Of a DNA stretch of 64,000 bases, positions 21,325-31,117 are shown in pieces. Position 1 is the first letter of the stretch. Every line of letters begins with the position of its first letter. The notes under the pieces were generated by a model. It did not search any database. It saw nothing but the letters and a program-made list of their open reading frames with translations, and was not told the origin of the DNA. Position numbers and translations under genes: made by a program. Source of the stretch: an uncultured Pelagibacteraceae bacterium. GTDB taxonomy: Bacteria; Pseudomonadota; Alphaproteobacteria; Pelagibacterales; Pelagibacteraceae. The stretch spans positions 1-64,000 of the forward strand of contig CACJEN010000005.1 of the NCBI GenBank assembly GCA_902592445.1. The letters are read 5' to 3'.

Positions 21325-23109
21325 TTAATTTGAGAGTGATTTTTGAGGTTTCATATCCTCTTTTTTAATTCCAGCTACACGAACAGGTTTTTTCATTGCA
21401 TCTCTTCTAAACGGTTCACCTAATTCTTGATTTAAAATAACCTCAATAAATGTTGTAATTCCTTGTTTTTGATCTTCACAAGATTGTTTAATTGCAGCTG
21501 TAGTTTCTTCCATTGTTTTAACAGTAACTCCTTTTAAACCACAAGCAGTTGCTACTTTTGCATAACTTAATTCTGGATCAAGTTCTGTTCCAACAAAATT
21601 ATCATCAAACCATAATATTGAATTTCTTTTTTCTGCCCCCCACTGATAATTTCTAAAAATAACCATTGTTATTGCTGGCCACTCTTTTCTTGCACACGAA
21701 CTCATCTCGTTCATAGATATTCCAAATGCACCATCACCTGCAAAACCAATTACTGGTGTATCAGGACATCCAATTTTTGCTCCTAAAATTGATGGGAAAC
21801 CATATCCACAAGGACCAAATAAGCCTGGTGCTAAATATTTTCTTCCTTTTTCAAAAGTTGGATAAGCGTTTCCAATTGCACAATTATTTCCTATGTCACT
21901 TGAAATAATTACATCATCTGGCATTCCAACTTGAATTGCTCTCCATGCTTGTCTCGGAGACATTCGATCTGAGTCTCTTTCTCTTGCTTCTTTATTCCAA
22001 ACAGTCCCTGGATCATCATCTTCATGATCTAGGCTAGTAAGAGTTTGTAGCCATGCTGATTTTGTTTTGTGTATTAAATTTTTTCTTTCTTCTCTATTAT
22101 TATCTCCAGCGTTTGATGAAAGTTTTTGTAAAATTTGTTGTGAAACTAATTTTGCATCTCCACAAATTCCAACTGTAACTTTTTTTGTTAATCCAATTCT
22201 ATCTGGGTTCATATCTACTTGAATTATAGTGGCATCTTTTGGCCAATAATCTATTCCATAACCTGGAAGAGTTGAAAATGGATTTAGTCTTGTGCCTAAT
22301 GCCAAAACCACGTCAGCTTTTGAGATCAATTCCATTGCTGCTTTAGATCCATTGTAACCCAATGGTCCAACCGCTAAAGGATGGCTCCCTGGAAAGCTAT
22401 CATTATGTTGATATCCATTACATACAGGAGCATCTAATTTCTCAGCTAATTTTTTACAATCTTCTATAGCACCACCAATTACCACTCCTGCTCCGGATAA
22501 TATTACTGGGAATTTTGCATCTGATAATAATTTTGCTGCTCTATCAATTGCATCCTTTCCTCCACCTTGTCTTTCAAATCTTACAATTGGAGGTAATTCA
22601 ATATCAATAACTTGTGTCCAGTAATCTCTCGGTACATTTATTTGTGCAGGAGCTGATCCTCTGAATGCTTTTTCAATAACTCTGTTTAAAACTTCAGCCA
22701 TTCTAGATGGATCTCTAACTTCCTCTTGATAACAGACCATGTCTTTGAATAAATTCATCTGTTCGACTTCTTGAAACCCACCTTGGCCCATGGTTTTATT
22801 TGCAGCTTGCGGAGTTACTAAAAGCAAAGGTGTGTGATTCCAATAAGCAGTTTTAATCGGTGTAACTAAACCTGTAATTCCAGGTCCGTTTTGTGCAATG
22901 ACCATTGACATTTTTCCTGTCGCTCTTGTGTATCCATCTGCAATCAATCCTCCATTTGTTTCGTGTGCTACATCCCAAAAAGTAATTCCTGCTGAAGGAA
23001 AAATATCTGAAATAGGCATGAAAGCAGACCCAATAATTCCAAAAGCATGTTCTATCCCATGCATCTGAAGGACTTTTACAAAAGCTTCTTCGGTTGTCAT
23101 CTTAGTCAT
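21325..23109 (-). CDS. xsc: Sulfoacetaldehyde acetyltransferase
   Basis: Xsc is a thiamine-diphosphate enzyme that turns sulfoacetaldehyde plus phosphate into acetyl phosphate and sulfite. The 594-residue length is typical. Visible landmarks are the catalytic Glu50 in VAHETNGGL, QNGPGITG, a central domain, and the ThDP/Mg motif GFAGDGAFGISMNEM, followed by the Xsc-like QWGAEKRNS stretch. It differs from acetolactate synthase in these segments. The start could also be the Met three codons later. It is divergent from suyA, and the taurine aminotransferase, transporter and a Pta-like enzyme that would supply its substrate and use its product are at 51.6-61.5 kb. Confidence 0.93.
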   Translation of the reverse strand: MTKMTTEEAFVKVLQMHGIEHAFGIIGSAFMPISDIFPSAGITFWDVAHETNGGLIADGYTRATGKMSMVIAQNGPGITGLVTPIKTAYWNHTPLLLVTPQAANKTMGQGGFQEVEQMNLFKDMVCYQEEVRDPSRMAEVLNRVIEKAFRGSAPAQINVPRDYWTQVIDIELPPIVRFERQGGGKDAIDRAAKLLSDAKFPVILSGAGVVIGGAIEDCKKLAEKLDAPVCNGYQHNDSFPGSHPLAVGPLGYNGSKAAMELISKADVVLALGTRLNPFSTLPGYGIDYWPKDATIIQVDMNPDRIGLTKKVTVGICGDAKLVSQQILQKLSSNAGDNNREERKNLIHKTKSAWLQTLTSLDHEDDDPGTVWNKEARERDSDRMSPRQAWRAIQVGMPDDVIISSDIGNNCAIGNAYPTFEKGRKYLAPGLFGPCGYGFPSILGAKIGCPDTPVIGFAGDGAFGISMNEMSSCARKEWPAITMVIFRNYQWGAEKRNSILWFDDNFVGTELDPELSYAKVATACGLKGVTVKTMEETTAAIKQSCEDQKQGITTFIEVILNQELGEPFRRDAMKKPVRVAGIKKEDMKPQKSLSN

Positions 23110-23200
23110 AATAATGATGTCTCAAAATCTATATTTTAATTGTTAAAGAGACCGATTAATATATAAGTTGATGCAAATTTCAAACAAAGAAATCGTCACA

Positions 23201-23488
23201 ATGGCAAACACAGATATAATAATTCATGACGAAAAAGATAATGTAGGCGTGGTTGTCATAGAAAAAATTACACCAAGCCAAGATTGTAATTGTTGGGTAA
23301 TGGAGAATGATAAATCTGTCCAAATTCAATCAAAGGATGAAATTCCTTTAGGTCATAAAATAGCAATGATAGACTTAAATGAAGGTGATACGATTTTAAA
23401 ATATGGACACGATATTGGTAAAGTAGTTAAGTCAATTAAAAAAGGTGAACATGTTCATATTCATAATGTAAAAACTAAGAAGTGGTAA
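23201..23488 (+). CDS. suyA: (2R)-sulfolactate sulfo-lyase small subunit
   Basis: SuyA with SuyB removes sulfite from sulfolactate to give pyruvate. The 95-residue product is a SAF-domain protein of the UxaA N-terminal type, with [24 protein letters not shown] and a final [10 protein letters not shown] prefer the ATG at 23201 because the family begins near this point; an in-frame ATG at 23168 would add 11 residues. The gene is followed one base later by suyB. The divergent xsc starts 91 bases away, so both sulfite-releasing enzymes may share a control region. Confidence 0.9.
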
Positions 23489-23489
23489 G

Positions 23490-24656
23490 ATGGAAATTCC
23501 AAAAATATTTTTAGGTTATAAAAGAGAAGACGGCAGATCTGGAACTAGAAACCATGTAATAATACTTCCTGTGGATGATATTTCAAATGCTTGCGCAGAG
23601 GCAGTTGCAAATAACATTAAAGGGACAATCGCATTACCTCATTCTTATGGAAGATTACAATTTGGTGCTGACCTAGAATTACACTTTAGAACTATGATCG
23701 GTACAGGTAGAAATCCAAATGTTGCAGCAGTGATAGTTATTGGCATTGAACCTAAGTGGACAAAAAGAATTGTAGATGCAATTGCAGTAACTGGAAAACC
23801 AGTTGAAGGTTTTAGTATTGAAGGTGTTGGAGACATTGACACAATTGCTAAAGTTTCAAAAAAAGCGCAAGAATTCTCAATTTGGGCATCTGAAAAACAG
23901 AGAGAGGAAAGACCAATTAGTGATTTATGGATTTCTGTAAAATGTGGCGAGTCAGATACAACTTCTGGGCTTGCTTCGAACCCTACAGTTGGGAATTTAA
24001 TGGATAAATTAGAACCTTTAGGTGTTCATTTATGTTTTGGAGAAACATCAGAATTGACTGGAGCCGAAACAGTTTGTGAAAAAAGAGGAAAAACCCCTGA
24101 GGCACAAGAAAAGTTCAAAAAAACTTGGAATGCGTACAATGATTTTATTTTAAAAGAGGCAACAGATGATTTATCTGAAAGTCAACCCACTGCTGGAAAC
24201 ATTGCTGGTGGTCTCACAACTATTGAAGAGAAAGCATTTGGTAATTTTCAAAAAATTGGTTCAAGACAATTTATAGACGTCTTAGAACCTGCAGAAGAAC
24301 CAACTAAAGGTCCTGGTTTATATTTTATGGATACCTCATCAGCTGCTGCTGAATGTGTAACTTTACAAGCAGCAGGTGGTTTTAATATTCATTTATTTCC
24401 AACAGGACAAGGGAATATCATAGGAAATCCAATTGAGCCAGTTATTAAGTTAACGGCTAATCCATTAACAGCAAAAAACATGAGTGAACACATTGATGTT
24501 GATGTATCAAAAATTCTTTCAAGAGAGATGAACTTAGATCAAGCTGGAGACGAACTTATTAAAGCTACTTTAAGAGTAGCTAACGGTAGACTTACCTGCG
24601 CAGAAGCTTTAGGTCATAAAGAATTTGTAATGACTAAACTTTATAGAAGTGCATAA
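23490..24656 (+). CDS. suyB: (2R)-sulfolactate sulfo-lyase large subunit
   Basis: The 388-residue protein belongs to the UxaA C-terminal (altronate dehydratase-like) family: [14 protein letters not shown] at the start, the [11 protein letters not shown] segment, [19 protein letters not shown], and [13 protein letters not shown]. In this family the split small-plus-large arrangement also occurs in altronate and galactarate lyases, so the sulfolactate assignment rests on the neighbourhood of xsc, sulfite exporters and apr genes. It would release sulfite and pyruvate in the cytoplasm. Confidence 0.88.
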
Positions 24657-24669
24657 ACTTTAAATACAC

Positions 24670-25755
24670 TTGACTTTAAAACATCCTTTAAATTTATTGC
24701 CTGGTATAATTTTAGCTTTTATACTTTATTCTTTTTCTCAGGGTTTAAATAATATTATTGGAATTGAATTGTTAGGATATGAAAAAAGTCCTATGTCAAC
24801 AGCAATGATTGCAATTATTTTAGGATTAATTTTGGGAAATATTTTTAATATTAGGGAAGGTTTTTTAATTGGATTAGACTTTACTCAAAAAAATATTCTT
24901 AAACTTGGTATTATTTGTTTAGGAATTCAATTAAAACCTTTCGAATTTATAAAATTTGGATCAATAGCTATTCCTTTAATAGTTGTATGTATTATGAGTG
25001 TATTGATCGTCATAAAACTTCTCATTCAAAAACTTAAAATATCAAGAGGAATGTCTTACTTAATTGCGATCGGTAGCACTGTTTGCGGAACAACAGCTAT
25101 TATTGCAACAGCGCCAGTAATTAACGCAAAGAAAAGTGAGGTAGCGTATGCTGTAGGGAATATGACATTGTTCGGAATTCTGGCAATGTTAATTTATCCT
25201 TACTTTGCAAACTTTTATTTTGAGGGAGATCCATTATTTGTTGGTTTATTTCTTGGAACTGCAATACACGAAACCTCACAAGTAGCTGCAGCTGGTCTTA
25301 TTTACGATCAGCAATTTAACAGCCCTGAAACCCTAAATATAGCAACAGTTACAAAGCTAATTAGAAATACATTTCTTGTTATAATGATACCTCTATTCGC
25401 TTATCTTTATAATAGGGGTCAAAATCACGATCAAAAATATTCGATCGTTAAAATTTTTCCATATTTTGTATTAGGTTTTATAGCATTTATTATTTTAAGA
25501 AATGTTGGCGATGTATTTTTCTACAATACAAATATTTCGGACAAGGAACTGTGGGTCGACTTCGTTAATACAATAAAAATTTCTTCAAAAATATTTTTAA
25601 CAATGGCCATGGCTGCAATCGGATTATCTACTAACCTAAAAGATTTAAATAAAATGGGATACAAGCCGTTTATAGTCGGATTTGTATCTCTTTTAACTGT
25701 AGGATTTGTAAGTTTGGTTGCAATTAATTATTTTAGCGAAATAGTTTTAAATTAA
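24670..25755 (+). CDS. YeiH family putative sulfate/sulfite exporter
   Basis: A 361-residue membrane protein with about ten hydrophobic helices. Family segments include TAMIAIILGLILGN, GIICLGIQL and the conserved STVCGTTAIIATAPV (about 137-151), then GTAIHETSQVAAAG. YeiH proteins are proposed exporters of sulfur oxyanions. The start codon is TTG, 13 bases after the suyB stop, chosen because it is the first start in frame before the family block. Placement behind suyAB fits removal of sulfite or sulfate. Confidence 0.87.
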   Translation: MTLKHPLNLLPGIILAFILYSFSQGLNNIIGIELLGYEKSPMSTAMIAIILGLILGNIFNIREGFLIGLDFTQKNILKLGIICLGIQLKPFEFIKFGSIAIPLIVVCIMSVLIVIKLLIQKLKISRGMSYLIAIGSTVCGTTAIIATAPVINAKKSEVAYAVGNMTLFGILAMLIYPYFANFYFEGDPLFVGLFLGTAIHETSQVAAAGLIYDQQFNSPETLNIATVTKLIRNTFLVIMIPLFAYLYNRGQNHDQKYSIVKIFPYFVLGFIAFIILRNVGDVFFYNTNISDKELWVDFVNTIKISSKIFLTMAMAAIGLSTNLKDLNKMGYKPFIVGFVSLLTVGFVSLVAINYFSEIVLN

Positions 25756-26840
25756 GAGGCTTTTAATTTCGCCTCTCTTGCAGCATTCCACTTTGAAAAA
25801 TAATTTCTAATTACGGCAGCTCCCACGCCTAAACCAACTGCTAATATAACTGAAGTAAGTCCATAAAATATTGGTAAGTCTTTAGAATAATTTAAAATAA
25901 ATTCGCCAATTTTTCCAAGACTTGATGATCCATTAATTACTGTTTCAACTATTTTTTCATCTTTAATAAATGTGTCGTAAGCAATTGCAATTCCAACGAG
26001 TAGAAGAAGAATTGCTAAAATTGTTTTAAATTCTGAGCTGTCAACTTTTTCTCCAATTTTTTGGCCTAGTTGTACTCCTATAATTGATCCTAGGATAAGT
26101 ACAAAAACTAAAACTAAATCAATTGTTCCATAATTTAATGCGTGTAAAACTGTAACAATTGCGCTTACAAATATAGTTACAAATAAAGATGTACCTGGGA
26201 TTAATTTTGTTGGCATTCCAATTATATAAATCATGGCAGGAACTAAAATAAATGCACCTCCTACACCCATGATTGCAGCAATAAATCCAACAACTAATCC
26301 AATAATAATTGGTGTAAATGCGCTTTCATATAATTTTGATTTTTTAAATCGCATCCTTAAAGGAAGACCATGTATCCAATAGTGTGTGTGCAATTTTTTC
26401 TTTACAACAATTTTTTTTCTTGCCTTATCAATTTCAGATACACCTTGAATTAACATTAATGTTCCAAGTATTGCTAAAATGTACATATAAGCCAGAGATA
26501 TAACTACATTAATTTTCCCTATGTCCTTAAAATAAGAAAAAGTTAAAATTCCAAGCAGTGTTCCTATTACTCCACCAACAACTATCATTAAACCCATTTT
26601 GTAATCTAAAGTACCTTTTAAATAATGTGTTGTAGATCCTGAAACCGATGTTCCTAAAATATTGCTTGCTTCATTTGGAACAGCATAAGCGGGGGGAATA
26701 CCTAAAAATATTAAGAAAGGTGTCATTAGAAAACCACCTCCCACACCAAATAATCCTGATAGAATTCCAACTACAAGACTTAATCCAAATATAAAAAGTA
26801 AATTTATTTCGACTTGAGCAATTGGAAGAAAATACTCCAT
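25752..26840 (-). CDS. TauE/SafE (TSUP) family sulfite exporter
   Basis: The 362-residue protein has two TSUP repeats: GLFGVGGGFLMTPFLIFLG (about 31-49) and a second MGVGGAFILVPAMIYIIG (about 191-208), with a long basic insert between helices 4 and 5 and an extra C-terminal helix. TSUP proteins move sulfite, sulfoacetate or other organic sulfur compounds outward. It lies downstream of the apr genes on the same strand and converges on the YeiH-like gene with 4 nt overlap, so two unrelated exporters face each other. Confidence 0.9.
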   Translation of the reverse strand: MEYFLPIAQVEINLLFIFGLSLVVGILSGLFGVGGGFLMTPFLIFLGIPPAYAVPNEASNILGTSVSGSTTHYLKGTLDYKMGLMIVVGGVIGTLLGILTFSYFKDIGKINVVISLAYMYILAILGTLMLIQGVSEIDKARKKIVVKKKLHTHYWIHGLPLRMRFKKSKLYESAFTPIIIGLVVGFIAAIMGVGGAFILVPAMIYIIGMPTKLIPGTSLFVTIFVSAIVTVLHALNYGTIDLVLVFVLILGSIIGVQLGQKIGEKVDSSEFKTILAILLLLVGIAIAYDTFIKDEKIVETVINGSSSLGKIGEFILNYSKDLPIFYGLTSVILAVGLGVGAAVIRNYFSKWNAAREAKLKAS

Positions 26841-27082: not shown

Positions 27083-27433
27083 TTAAAAAATTGTTGCTCC
27101 AAAGACTTTAACTTCATCTCCCTCATCTCCAAGGACAAGCCTTCCTAAAAAATCTCCGGATACTTCGGTGCTTGTCTGTTTATAGACTATGGTAACGTAC
27201 TTCCCTCTTCTAAGACATCCAATGGCCTTACATCCTTCAGATAATGAGGACAAAAGTTTATTGGTCGACCACTGTTTGCCTAGCTCGACTTCATTTGCTC
27301 CGTACAGCATTTGTGAAGACAAATCTCTTGTAAATCCACCATAATCTTTAATATTTGAGGATTTAACAAGGTTTTGCCAGATAGGATCTGCAATATTTAT
27401 AATCTCAGTATCAGATTTATCGACGATGCTCAT
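27083..27433 (-). CDS. Unrecognised soluble protein encoded after aprA
   Basis: The 116-residue protein has no signal peptide or membrane helix. Its composition is balanced rather than Lys-rich, with a two-Cys segment EGCKAIGCLRRGKYV near 68-82 and a Gly/Val-rich end (LGDEGDEVKVFGATIF). It starts 15 bases after the aprA stop, so it is almost certainly in the aprM-aprB-aprA transcript. I do not recognise a domain. It may help AprBA assembly, handle the APS product or pass electrons; none of these is shown by sequence. Confidence 0.75.
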   Translation of the reverse strand: MSIVDKSDTEIINIADPIWQNLVKSSNIKDYGGFTRDLSSQMLYGANEVELGKQWSTNKLLSSLSEGCKAIGCLRRGKYVTIVYKQTSTEVSGDFLGRLVLGDEGDEVKVFGATIF

Positions 27434-27448
27434 TACTAGGATTGGTTT

Positions 27449-29308
27449 CTAAGAGGCTTGTTTTTTCTCTTTGTCATCAACTATATGATAAACCGGCTTT
27501 TTCTCCATTTCAAATTTTCCTGTCTCAGGGTCTCGTCTAGAAACAGTTAAACAATGCCAATTTTCATCATCAAGCTTCATATGATCGCCTCTGTAATAAT
27601 ATCCAGGCCAACGTGTTTCCTCTCTAAAAAGAGTATGATGAGTGACACATTGAGAGGTCACAGCTCTGTGTTTAAGCTCCCAAGCTCTCATTAATTGGTG
27701 ATAATCCTCTGCTCCAACATTTTCTAGGTCTTCCTCTAACATTTCAAGTTGTTCGATACCTTTTTTAAGAAGATTGTCATTGGTCATGTAATTATTGGTC
27801 AAACCACCACAATATTCATCCATAATTTTTTGAAGTCTCTGAAGACCCTGAATAGGAAGTATATAGCTTGGGGAAACAGTTCCACCAGTAATCTCGTTCC
27901 TTCCAACTGTATAATTCTCTATCGGTTTAAATATTTCCTCTTTCAACTTCTCTAATTGTTCATCAGAAACATGAATATCATCAGCTTTTTTATCCTGAAT
28001 ATATTTAACAGCTGCTTTAGATGCCAATCTTCCCTCAGTAAATGAACCTGAGGAAAACTTATGTGCACTTCCACCAACTGCATCTCCAGCACCAAATAAT
28101 CCATCAATTGTCATCATACGATTATATCCCCAGAAATACTCATCAGGAGCAATATCCTCTGGTCCACTTACCCATGCTCCAGAACATGTTGCGTGAGATC
28201 CCATTACATACGGCTCAGAAGTTGTTAACTCCGGATTTGTATATTTTGGATCAATATTTTGAGATGCCCAAACCACTGCTTGTCCAACTGTCATCCCTAA
28301 GAAATTTTCCCATCCAACTGTTTCTAAATGAGGGTCTTGAAATGCTTCTTTGGTAACCATGTGAATTGGTCCACCACCTGCTGCTGTTTCTTGAATAAAT
28401 GCGTGGTTCCTCAAACATGTTGGAGTTGGATGATGATCTATATATTCTCCAACAAGTTTCTTAGTTGCATCATACCATTTCTTTTCATAATTTTCGCCAT
28501 TTGCATTTTGGGTATATGTTTTTAAATGTAAAAAATATGCTCCAACAGGACCATATCCATCTTTAAATCTACACAGTACAATCCTATTTTCCATTTGTGT
28601 CATTTTAGCACCAGCTTGAATTGGTAAAGCGTACGCAGATCCATTGCTCCAAGGAGCGTACCAAGTTCTTCCCATACCTTCTCCTACTGCTCTTGGTTTA
28701 AAAATATGTGAAGCTCCACCAGCAGATACAACAACAGTTCGAGACTTAAATACATGGAAATTTCCTGTTCTGACATTGAAGCCAACAGCGCCAGCTATTC
28801 GGTTTGGATTTTTTTCATCTTTTAAAAGATGAGTAATCATTATTCTATTATAAATTTTATCAGCAGATTTTTTTGCAGCTTCTGCTACAATTGGTTTATA
28901 ACTTTCGCCGTGGATCATTATCTGCCACTTACCTTCTCTTTGATATCTGCCAGTCTCTTTATTTTTCATCATTGGAAGACCCCATTCATCAAACATATGA
29001 ACAGTTGAGTCTACGTGACGAGCCATATCGTAACCCAGATCTTCTCTTACTAATCCCATTAAATCATTTCTAGCGTACCTTACATGGTCCTCTGGCATAT
29101 TTTCGCCCCACTGCATTCCCATATAACAGTTAATAGCGTAAAGACCTTGCGCAACTGCACCACTTCTATCAATATTTGCTTTCTCTACACAGATAATTTT
29201 TAGATCTCTTCCCCAGTGTCTTGCTTCAAATGTTGCACCTGTACCAGCCATACCTCCGCCGACAACAAGAACATCACATTCTTCTATAATTGTTTTGTGT
29301 TTAGCCAT
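27449..29308 (-). CDS. aprA: Adenylylsulfate reductase alpha subunit, likely in sulfite oxidation
   Basis: AprA is the FAD subunit that interconverts sulfite plus AMP and APS. The 619-residue protein shows the FAD motif LVVGGGMAGTGATFEARHWG (about 15-34), the RSGAVAQGLYAINCYMG block, GSHATCSGAWVSG and FGAGDAVGG. In an aerobic sulfonate degrader it most plausibly runs in the oxidative direction. Its ATG overlaps the aprB stop by one base. The electron acceptor seems to be AprM rather than Qmo proteins, and no sulfate adenylyltransferase is in the window. Confidence 0.95.
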   Translation of the reverse strand: MAKHKTIIEECDVLVVGGGMAGTGATFEARHWGRDLKIICVEKANIDRSGAVAQGLYAINCYMGMQWGENMPEDHVRYARNDLMGLVREDLGYDMARHVDSTVHMFDEWGLPMMKNKETGRYQREGKWQIMIHGESYKPIVAEAAKKSADKIYNRIMITHLLKDEKNPNRIAGAVGFNVRTGNFHVFKSRTVVVSAGGASHIFKPRAVGEGMGRTWYAPWSNGSAYALPIQAGAKMTQMENRIVLCRFKDGYGPVGAYFLHLKTYTQNANGENYEKKWYDATKKLVGEYIDHHPTPTCLRNHAFIQETAAGGGPIHMVTKEAFQDPHLETVGWENFLGMTVGQAVVWASQNIDPKYTNPELTTSEPYVMGSHATCSGAWVSGPEDIAPDEYFWGYNRMMTIDGLFGAGDAVGGSAHKFSSGSFTEGRLASKAAVKYIQDKKADDIHVSDEQLEKLKEEIFKPIENYTVGRNEITGGTVSPSYILPIQGLQRLQKIMDEYCGGLTNNYMTNDNLLKKGIEQLEMLEEDLENVGAEDYHQLMRAWELKHRAVTSQCVTHHTLFREETRWPGYYYRGDHMKLDDENWHCLTVSRRDPETGKFEMEKKPVYHIVDDKEKKQAS

Positions 29309-29778
29309 TAATAGTAAACACCTTGCTTAAATGAATTTTTATCTAAGGTTGGTAGTTCTTTTTCGGTATTTAAACCTTGCGGCTCATTGTATAAGATTTG
29401 TGAATTTATTTCTCCTTGGTTTGGTGTGTCTGCTTCAGCTAATTTTGGAATAAATTTTCCCCAAGGCTTAGTTGTTATTGGTGATACAAAATTTTTCTCT
29501 GTTCCATTTCTAAATTTAATTCTCCAGGAGATCGTACCTTTTTCCTCTTCTCTTCTAACTCTAACACTATGACCCATTGGTGCAAAGTCTGCATATCCTC
29601 TTACATCAATTGCATGATTTGGACATGCCTTCACACATGAATAGCATTCCCAACAAAAATTTGGTTCTATATTTTTGGCTCTTCTTATAGTTTCATCAAT
29701 GTGCATGATGTCTGATGGGCAAATATCTACACAATGTCCACAACCATCACATCTCGTCATATATACAAATGTTGACAT
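29308..29778 (-). CDS. aprB: Adenylylsulfate reductase beta subunit (ferredoxin-like)
   Basis: The 156-residue electron-transfer subunit carries two [4Fe-4S] motifs: Cys10, 13, 16, 20 in CDGCGHCVDICP and Cys42, 45, 48, 52 in CWECYSCVKACP. The rest forms the AprB-specific beta region and a tail that wraps AprA. It lies between aprM and aprA, overlapping aprA by one base. It would carry electrons from the AprA flavin to the membrane protein AprM. Confidence 0.95.
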   Translation of the reverse strand: MSTFVYMTRCDGCGHCVDICPSDIMHIDETIRRAKNIEPNFCWECYSCVKACPNHAIDVRGYADFAPMGHSVRVRREEEKGTISWRIKFRNGTEKNFVSPITTKPWGKFIPKLAEADTPNQGEINSQILYNEPQGLNTEKELPTLDKNSFKQGVYY

Positions 29779-29817: not shown

Positions 29818-30612
29818 TTAATAGTGCTTTGGTGCCTCACGTTTAATTCCAAGACCATATTGTTCTGGAGCATCAGCCGGTGGAGGTAAGTTATCTCTTG
29901 AACCATCAGCTTCTGCTAAATTTTTTTGAATAGCCGCGCCGGGCTTGTAGAACATATGTGCAAATTTCGACCAATAGACACCGCCGAATAAAATTATATT
30001 AGCAGCTGCAAATAAAACTAAAAATAAAACACTTAGACCTGTTGAGCCATTGTATTGAAAGTAGGACCATGCTAATCCAAAAGTCGATGATAATACTAAT
30101 GCTAAAACAAATAAATCTGCTTTAATAATTCTAAAAACTGAGTGTGCTTCAGCAGAAACATCTACTCTTAAAAAAAACCAAAACCAATAAGCTCCTAGGC
30201 ATGTTAATATAGCACCTACATGCCAAATAATTGGCCATATAGATGGCGTGACTGCATTTGGTGAAGAATAACCAAATATCATTACTCCTGATCCAATCCA
30301 AAATAGTATTGTCCCGTACATTCCTAAAACATGTGCCACTCTTCTTTTTCCTAATCCTAATTCAGATGTTGTTCCAATATCATGAACAACGGTTTTTGAA
30401 ATTATTGCAGTTTTTTCTCCAAAACTTAATTCTCTACTTGCGGCTTTTTTCGCCTTCTTAGCGTTATTGAAAAAGTACTTTACATTTTTTTTATGAATAA
30501 TGTCCATAAGAGTTCCAATTACAGCTAAAGCTAACATCAATAAAACAAAACCCTGCAAAGCAATTGAAGGAACTGTTGAAGAGAGAACAGCAAATGGGTT
30601 GGTTGTGAACAT
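29818..30612 (-). CDS. aprM: AprM, membrane anchor/electron acceptor for AprBA
   Basis: The 264-residue protein has about six hydrophobic helices (near 15-35, 95-117, 125-148, 163-182, 195-213) and a soluble C-terminal tail with the end GIKREAPKHY. His residues in helices (for example VAHVLGMYG and WHVGAIL) could hold heme, as in other quinone-reactive subunits. AprM replaces QmoABC in several lineages with AprBA. It is first in the run aprM-aprB-aprA-unknown, with a candidate operator 54 bases upstream. Confidence 0.88.
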   Translation of the reverse strand: MFTTNPFAVLSSTVPSIALQGFVLLMLALAVIGTLMDIIHKKNVKYFFNNAKKAKKAASRELSFGEKTAIISKTVVHDIGTTSELGLGKRRVAHVLGMYGTILFWIGSGVMIFGYSSPNAVTPSIWPIIWHVGAILTCLGAYWFWFFLRVDVSAEAHSVFRIIKADLFVLALVLSSTFGLAWSYFQYNGSTGLSVLFLVLFAAANIILFGGVYWSKFAHMFYKPGAAIQKNLAEADGSRDNLPPPADAPEQYGLGIKREAPKHY

Positions 30613-30718: not shown

Positions 30719-31117
30719 TTACTTTTTTCTTAGATAATGCTGTTTTGATGAAATTACTGCCCTTACTCCTCCCTGAGGATTTTCAACATCATTAATCCGT
30801 CTTGGAATCAGATGAATGTGACAGTGATTGATAGATTGTCCAGCTACTTTGCCTGAATTAGTGCCAACATTAAATCCCTTTACAGATTTATCTTTTTTTT
30901 CGATATTTTTTTTTAATTTTTTAATCAGTTTATTGCATGCTAAAATTTCTTTTAGTGTTAGATCAAAATAACTCTTAACACATCTTTTAGGAATAATAAG
31001 TGAGTGAAATTTTGAAACAGGATAAGTATCTTTGGTTACATAAGCCAATTCATTTTCAAAAATAAAGTCTTTCTTTTTTGGAAAACAAAAAATACATGGA
31101 TTATTTGGATCTCTCAT
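30719..31117 (-). CDS. HIT family nucleotide hydrolase/transferase
   Basis: The 132-residue protein has the histidine triad NHCHIHLIPRR near 101-111 and an N-terminal NPCIFCFP with two Cys that may bind zinc. HIT proteins cleave nucleoside phosphoramidates, AMP conjugates or dinucleoside polyphosphates. The start overlaps the stop of the pabC-like gene (ATGA) on the same strand, so it is in the pab transcript. Sequence alone does not fix the substrate. Confidence 0.9.
   Translation of the reverse strand: MRDPNNPCIFCFPKKKDFIFENELAYVTKDTYPVSKFHSLIIPKRCVKSYFDLTLKEILACNKLIKKLKKNIEKKDKSVKGFNVGTNSGKVAGQSINHCHIHLIPRRINDVENPQGGVRAVISSKQHYLRKK

Follow-up and report, generated by a model that had tools for sequence, protein, structure and literature searches.

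The analysed window is a stretch of 64,000 nucleotides from an uncultured Pelagibacteraceae bacterium. Its minus strand carries, in this order, a HIT-domain gene, aprM, aprB, aprA, a gene for a 116-residue protein (labelled X here), a gap of 242 bases and a TauE/SafE-family exporter gene (Table 1). No Pfam family matched aprM above cut-off and its similarity to QmoC is weak, far under the cut-off; the name was taken from the operon as described in the available parts of PMC2211403 and PMC3779200. The exporter gene follows X in 118 of the 119 Pelagibacteraceae-type loci (a grouping of our own) with room for it, duplicates being kept. Beside the operon, positions 21325-25755 hold xsc (sulfoacetaldehyde acetyltransferase), an altronate-dehydratase-type gene and a YeiH-family exporter gene (TIGR00698, under its cut-off). 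By resemblance, we presume that the second of these may code for a sulfolactate sulfo-lyase, and the region likely represents sulfite sources adjoining a sulfite oxidase.

Table 1. Genes of the apr locus in the window and the basis of their assignment.
Feature	Positions	Strand	Length or basis
TauE/SafE-family exporter gene, next same-strand gene past X	25752..26840	-	PF01925 E 2.3e-45
X, NTF2-like-fold protein (predicted) of unnamed family	27083..27433	-	116 aa
aprA, APS reductase alpha subunit, AprM-associated type	27449..29308	-	TIGR02061 1001.7 bits (cut-off 641.75); tree position
aprB, APS reductase beta subunit	29308..29778	-	TIGR02060 191.6 bits (cut-off 135.65)
aprM, APS reductase operon membrane protein	29818..30612	-	position before aprBA; kept in 47/61 relatives
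HIT-domain protein 5' of aprM	30719..31117	-	PF01230 E 2.8e-18

The X open reading frame starts with ATG, 15 bases past the aprA stop, and its coordinates agree with the original prediction of a 116-residue protein at this place. The same prediction, made from the sequence alone, had judged X to be unlike random sequence; this is borne out by homologues of whole or nearly whole length in 47 of 61 relatives, and by dN/dS values of 0.05-0.11 against four SAR11 relatives (eight were tried, the other four having saturated synonymous sites). Against one close relative, the ratio is about 0.02. X is a real gene under strong purifying selection. Records with a 96-99% identical X belong to the Pelagibacteraceae (SAR11), and a length of about 116-117 residues is kept across classes, down to about 45% identity. 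As for the paired cysteines (C68 and C73) also pointed out earlier, neither is conserved among the homologues: C68 is seen in near relatives alone, and many homologues have T, I or M in place of C73. A Cys-based thiol-redox role for X was ruled out, there being no conserved cysteine pair.

Within the 61 relatives, aprA was found above its family cut-off in 48 genomes, 47 of which also carry X; the contig of the remaining one (G026) ends within aprA. None of the 13 SAR11-order relatives without aprA has X; four of these 13 genomes have a completeness rating of 90% or more. X shares its strand with aprA in all 127 SAR11-type loci with X. These loci are not independent, since many come from SAR11 genomes that are nearly identical and no fewer than seven places are counted twice. 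The gap between the two genes measures 0 to 24 bases at 125 of the 127 loci and 0 at the other two. In one relative (G005, C6:71074-71870), the aprM match is in two pieces with one in-frame stop each, while aprA and X are kept; the split may be an assembly error or a sign of decay.

The distribution of X was also analysed beyond SAR11. In a class sample of 289 genomes, X was found in four (G000, G267, G254 and G347), all among the 15 with aprA above cut-off. In a phylum sample of 398 genomes, X matched in 18. Eleven of these matches, among them the window, were strong (E 9e-22 or better), five were weak and came from genomes in which aprA was not found at E 1e-100 (G488, G399, G514, G510 and G578), and two were borderline (G470 and G531, E about 8e-4). 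Besides the window, aprA precedes X in nine of the ten strong matches, the tenth (G446) being cut by a contig end. Concerning another class of the phylum (258 genomes), matches were present in 35 genomes at E 1e-5. Five were left out, namely three contig-edge fragments (G795, G838 and G940) and two weak matches (G763 and G754), for which aprA was not found in the 7.9 and 9.8 kb of fetched DNA. The other 30 loci, one of which (G682) also belongs to the phylum sample, have aprA directly upstream of X in 29 cases, and an apparent IS element stands between the two genes in the thirtieth (G888). At that locus (L241:8395-9538), two ORFs look by eye to be of the IS3 type, X and a SlyD-like gene past it still being open.

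Three genomes of this other class, of 1.0-1.1 Mb, have a SAR11-like cassette with AprA 82% and X 54-64% identical, which, judged from these identities, suggests that the apr-X cassette moved into them as a unit. They also carry a gene for a small metallophosphoesterase 2 to 38 bases past X (L244:9350-9856, L245:9146-9667 and L246:7609-8127), assigned to PF12850 in the two tested and by eye in the third. A diverged SlyD-like gene, 34-37% identical, lies no more than about 4 kb from their apr-X cluster. X is thus retained in streamlined genomes, those of SAR11 and these three. A mobile or phage origin of X was rejected, searches against plasmids and phages giving no match at E 0.01; viral contigs gave a single partial match, 30 residues long.

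Close orthologues, with an identity of about 45% or higher, were confined in the samples searched to loci with an AprM-type AprA and to contig edges. There are also distant X-like genes, 24-35% identical, with no apr genes around them (L205:7976-8329, L206:7600-7950, L207:8024-8374, L209:8004-8354, L242:6681-7028 and L243:7190-7543), and these relatives show that other roles exist in the wider family. In L205 and L206, the neighbour of the X-like gene looks by eye like a gene for what we take to be a BLUF-domain photoreceptor. The related genes in genomes without aprA are what could be put forward for X being a passenger, which would owe its place beside apr to common descent and operon hitch-hiking and have an unrelated housekeeping role. 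This we regard as the least probable of the readings: it conflicts with the restriction of close orthologues just described, with the crossing of class borders by X together with AprM-type AprA and with the retention of X in minimal genomes. The association of X with aprBA of the AprM type is near certain. The two outcomes named beforehand as speaking against the original prediction, a wide occurrence apart from apr genes and membership in a known unrelated family, did not come about: the orthologues found adjoin apr, and no Pfam, NCBIfam or PDB family matches X by sequence above cut-off.

Two types of AprA have to be told apart. Thirty-four aprA loci were fetched, 30 from phylum-sample genomes without X and four being other-type loci of X-bearing genomes (the second loci of G417, G356, G498 and G446). 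Their AprA is 39-53% identical to that of the window, and neither X nor AprM was found in any of the 34 in the fetched DNA, some of which is cut by contig ends. G417, G356 and G498 hold both AprA types, X adjoining only one of them. Of the 48 genomes in the order of G427, X is present in seven, aprA (E 1e-60) stands without X in 26 and both genes are lacking in 15. Past aprA of the AprM-less type, another gene recurs, coding for a CxxCxxCC domain protein (L251:6150-7064, PF03692 E 8.7e-9); a similar gene was seen by eye in L164, L259, L256, L277, L278 and L280, L251 alone having been tested. The two AprA types thus seem to have different companion genes at the same place.

The tie to AprM has its exceptions. 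Nine Alphaproteobacteria have aprM-aprB-aprA without X (G061, G256, G286, G089, G087, G182, G245, G339 and G348), by which a strict dependence of X on AprM is ruled out. The original prediction of an unrecognised apr gene, to be checked by its co-occurrence with aprM, holds in its main part, X being strongly tied to aprBA and aprM and lying beside aprA of the AprM type, with the qualification that X is missing from these nine aprMBA loci. In a tree of AprA with 36 rows, a fully supported clade of 23 rows comprises all 22 X-bearing rows and G061, the eight other X-less AprM-bearing loci falling outside it. The position of G061 within the X-bearing clade has weak support (83/74), and constraining the 22 X-bearing rows together was not rejected (p-AU 0.384), so that a single gain of X possibly fits the AprA tree. 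The unconstrained tree needs two changes for X, and such counts cannot separate gain from loss; X may also have been gained and then lost once, in G061, or have been lost from the other X-less lines.

Pairwise distances were compared over 21 loci. The correlation coefficient is 0.917 for X and AprA, 0.955 for AprA and AprB and 0.860 for X and AprM. With mean distances of 0.635 for X, 0.221 for AprA and 0.621 for AprM, X changes at roughly three times the rate of AprA and at a pace like that of AprM, as would fit an accessory protein. Four sites of AprA (S148, V411, Q493 and E529) and one of AprB (K104) separate X-bearing from X-less loci, a division confounded with ancestry, and no such site was found in AprM.

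These data bear on the idea that the AprM-B-A complex permanently contains X as a small subunit or docking adaptor, which would connect AprBA with AprM or shield an interface. The tight linkage of X and aprA, with the narrow spacing seen in SAR11, and their correlated distances speak for it, as do the few AprA and AprB sites that split loci with X from loci without it. These sites are confounded with ancestry, though, AprM has no site separating the groups, and AprM-bearing loci without X exist; a subunit is therefore a possibility to be kept in mind, and on balance an unlikely one. An AprA-X read-through model of 741 residues (pLDDT 44.6, pTM 0.42) is uninformative on a contact, its alignment of 27 rows being probably too shallow.

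No Pfam family matched X above cut-off, the only match being DUF4888 at E 0.029 (14.8 bits for a cut-off of 25), and no DNA-binding family was found there. Nothing relevant matched in NCBIfam, no PDB sequence scored above cut-off and a profile search of the PDB gave as best match a MarR protein at chance level (E 0.46). The AlphaFold model of X (pLDDT 91.0, pTM 0.84) has helices at residues 8-27, 31-35, 40-45 and 48-57, and strands at 70-76, 79-86, 95-104 and 107-115. Its matches in Foldseek and VIA-align are mostly NTF2-like and cystatin-like chains. The best Foldseek match has an E of 2.9e-3, none reaching 0.001, and the best VIA-align match has a Z of 10.8 over 110 residues (rmsd 3.0), many NTF2-like chains giving a Z of about 10 over 100-110 residues. 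An NTF2-like fold is thus predicted for X, a cone in which N-terminal helices pack on a curved antiparallel sheet. Such a shared fold does not reveal the function of X. The VIA-align matches include ketosteroid isomerase, scytalone dehydratase, LinA and designed ligand binders. Residues invariant in 24 aligned rows include W19, S26-N27, Y31, F34, G45, N47-E48, Q54, G72, R76, G97-R98-L99-V100 and F111; in a wider set, single rows change one or another of them. The conserved polar residues S26, N27, Y31, N47, E48, R76 and R98 could line a ligand pocket.

The gene following X outside SAR11 has SlyD as its best PDB match (E 2.6e-15) and no Pfam family at E 0.1. It was found 3' of X in 26 of the 30 loci of the other class, in all ten of the loci L195-L204 and in L162 and L163. 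A gene of this folding-factor type next to X suggests, from gene order, a maturation module. No close SlyD-like gene was found in any of the 13 SAR11-order genomes tested, so that X and the SlyD-like gene are separable. In the nine X-less Alphaproteobacteria, a close SlyD homologue is likewise absent, weak matches occurring in G061 and G256 only.

ATP sulfurylase (Sat) was absent from all 25 SAR11-order genomes tested, whether they had X or not, and present in all 13 other Alphaproteobacteria tested, including the X-bearing G254 and G347; a sat-like gene was seen by eye beside apr in some X-less alphaproteobacterial loci. X as a simple substitute for Sat was ruled out, because G254 and G347 carry both. 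A HIT gene lies directly 5' of aprM and on the same strand in all 69 of the Pelagibacteraceae-type loci that extend 700 bases or more upstream (duplicates kept), and in none of eight loci of a second SAR11 family nor of 22 others. Cleavage of APS, yielding AMP or ADP, has been described for certain HIT proteins (Guranowski 2010, cited in the available part of PMC8704414), and the HIT protein of the window may be a candidate for the missing APS-consuming step where Sat is absent. In the second SAR11 family, a gene pair is convergent with X (L113:4289-5171 and L123:5262-6141; by eye also in L111, L115 and L116). Its first gene is APS kinase-like (PF01583, E 1.3e-6 in L113 and 2.2e-6 in L123, where AAA_33 scores equally) and its second is nucleotidyltransferase-like (PF01467, under cut-off).

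A role of X in handling a small molecule, by binding or converting APS, AMP or sulfite in its NTF2-like pocket and, for instance, passing APS on, can be considered in this context. NTF2-like folds often hold ligand pockets, N47-E48, R75-R76 and R98 are conserved and Sat is lacking in the SAR11-order genomes tested; yet G254 and G347 have Sat beside X, X evolves faster than the catalytic subunits and, for SAR11, the HIT protein encoded nearby is a better candidate for consuming APS, all of which makes such a role clearly unlikely. Improbable by a further step is a bolder version, in which X would define a second kind of AprM-type APS reductase as an APS-handling or gating protein, its pocket passing APS or AMP from AprA to the APS-consuming enzyme (HIT in SAR11, Sat elsewhere); if true, it would explain sulfite oxidation in Sat-less SAR11 cells. 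Finally, X might be a sensor of sulfite, APS or redox state regulating the operon or the enzyme. It is a small soluble protein within the same gene row, and two X-like relatives adjoin BLUF-photoreceptor-like genes (by eye, a naming presumed by us). Set against this, X belongs to no DNA-binding family found, its cysteines are not conserved and it accompanies structural genes, not a regulator, so that a sensor is very improbable.

As a whole, X is very probably a functional partner of AprBA in some way, and a role in aerobic sulfite oxidation, as first proposed, would follow from its genomic context. We rank a partner in assembly or stability ahead of a docking subunit, a ligand handler or a sensor. 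An assembly or stability role, as opposed to that of a permanent subunit, an enzyme or a sensor, is put forward tentatively, somewhat short of an even chance, and the overall reading of X as a dedicated cytosolic partner aiding AprBA assembly or stability is the best available one, held with barely more assurance. X would then be a cytosolic, non-catalytic partner of the AprM-type, Qmo-independent APS reductase. It would bind AprA or the AprBA dimer and aid its assembly or stability by loading cofactors, joining the subunits or delivering the enzyme to AprM, which would let electrons from the oxidation of sulfite to APS reach the membrane. The gene, its selection, its linkage, its specificity and the fold model form the observed basis, from which contact and function are deduced. 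Several points count against the assembly partner: aprMBA can exist without X, as in the nine alphaproteobacterial loci, NTF2-like proteins can be enzymes, X is separable from the SlyD-like gene in SAR11, the Foldseek threshold of 0.001 is unreached and apr-free X-like relatives exist.

The AprM-type APS reductase is a sulfite oxidation route in SAR11, among the most abundant ocean cells, and in many sulfur oxidisers. X is a concrete candidate for a missing part in the electron transfer of this enzyme to the membrane and in its maturation, and a marker splitting the aprMBA operon into two subtypes; a reconstitution expressing aprMBA alone may miss it.

In its lineage, aprM is always co-transcribed with aprBA, according to the available part of PMC2211403 (Meyer and Kuever), and in A. 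vinosum sat-aprMBA corresponds to Alvin_1118-1121 (Parey et al., PMC3779200). No gene past aprA is named in section 5 of PMC3779200 or in the available parts of PMC2211403 and PMC3368242. Likewise, the available parts of PMC5069961, PMC10609205, PMC6397845, PMC10504309, PMC11267869, PMC4136832, PMC10952691, PMC8704414 and PMC7705103 give no gene past aprA as part of the system. In the library searched, no paper joined APS reductase with NTF2-like proteins, and none joined aprM, aprA and SAR11. For P. ubique, the available part of PMC5069961 restates an earlier proposal of sulfite detoxification by AprBA, lends it support and reports that sat is missing. Alvin_1122, the next tag after aprA (Alvin_1121), is described as coding for a conserved hypothetical protein, and is given the value -2.73, in the transcriptome table of the available part of PMC11267869; Alvin_1119, Alvin_1121 and other Alvin_111 and Alvin_112 tags are absent from that text, which hence holds no evidence of co-regulation.

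Compared with NTF2-like, SnoaL-like and ketosteroid-isomerase proteins, X is alike in its predicted fold of four helices followed by four strands, and differs in having no sequence match to a curated family above cut-off. We know of no characterised NTF2-like member with such a gene context. The SlyD FKBP-type peptidyl-prolyl isomerase is a protein separate from X, its gene adjoining that of X outside SAR11. SdhE (SdhAF2) is an assembly factor of SdhA, a flavoprotein of the superfamily to which AprA belongs. X would resemble SdhE in concept only, as a small soluble protein serving a single flavoprotein of that superfamily. SdhE consists of helices throughout and carries an RGxxE motif, whereas the X model has four strands and RGxxE was not seen by eye in the X alignment. 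Also, we know of no covalent FAD binding in AprA. The closest known system is that of AprMBA (sat-aprMBA), which has the same row of aprM, aprB and aprA as the window. As published, it ends at aprA, whereas X is a further gene that comes with one AprA subclade and is an unrecognised member of the known apr operon.
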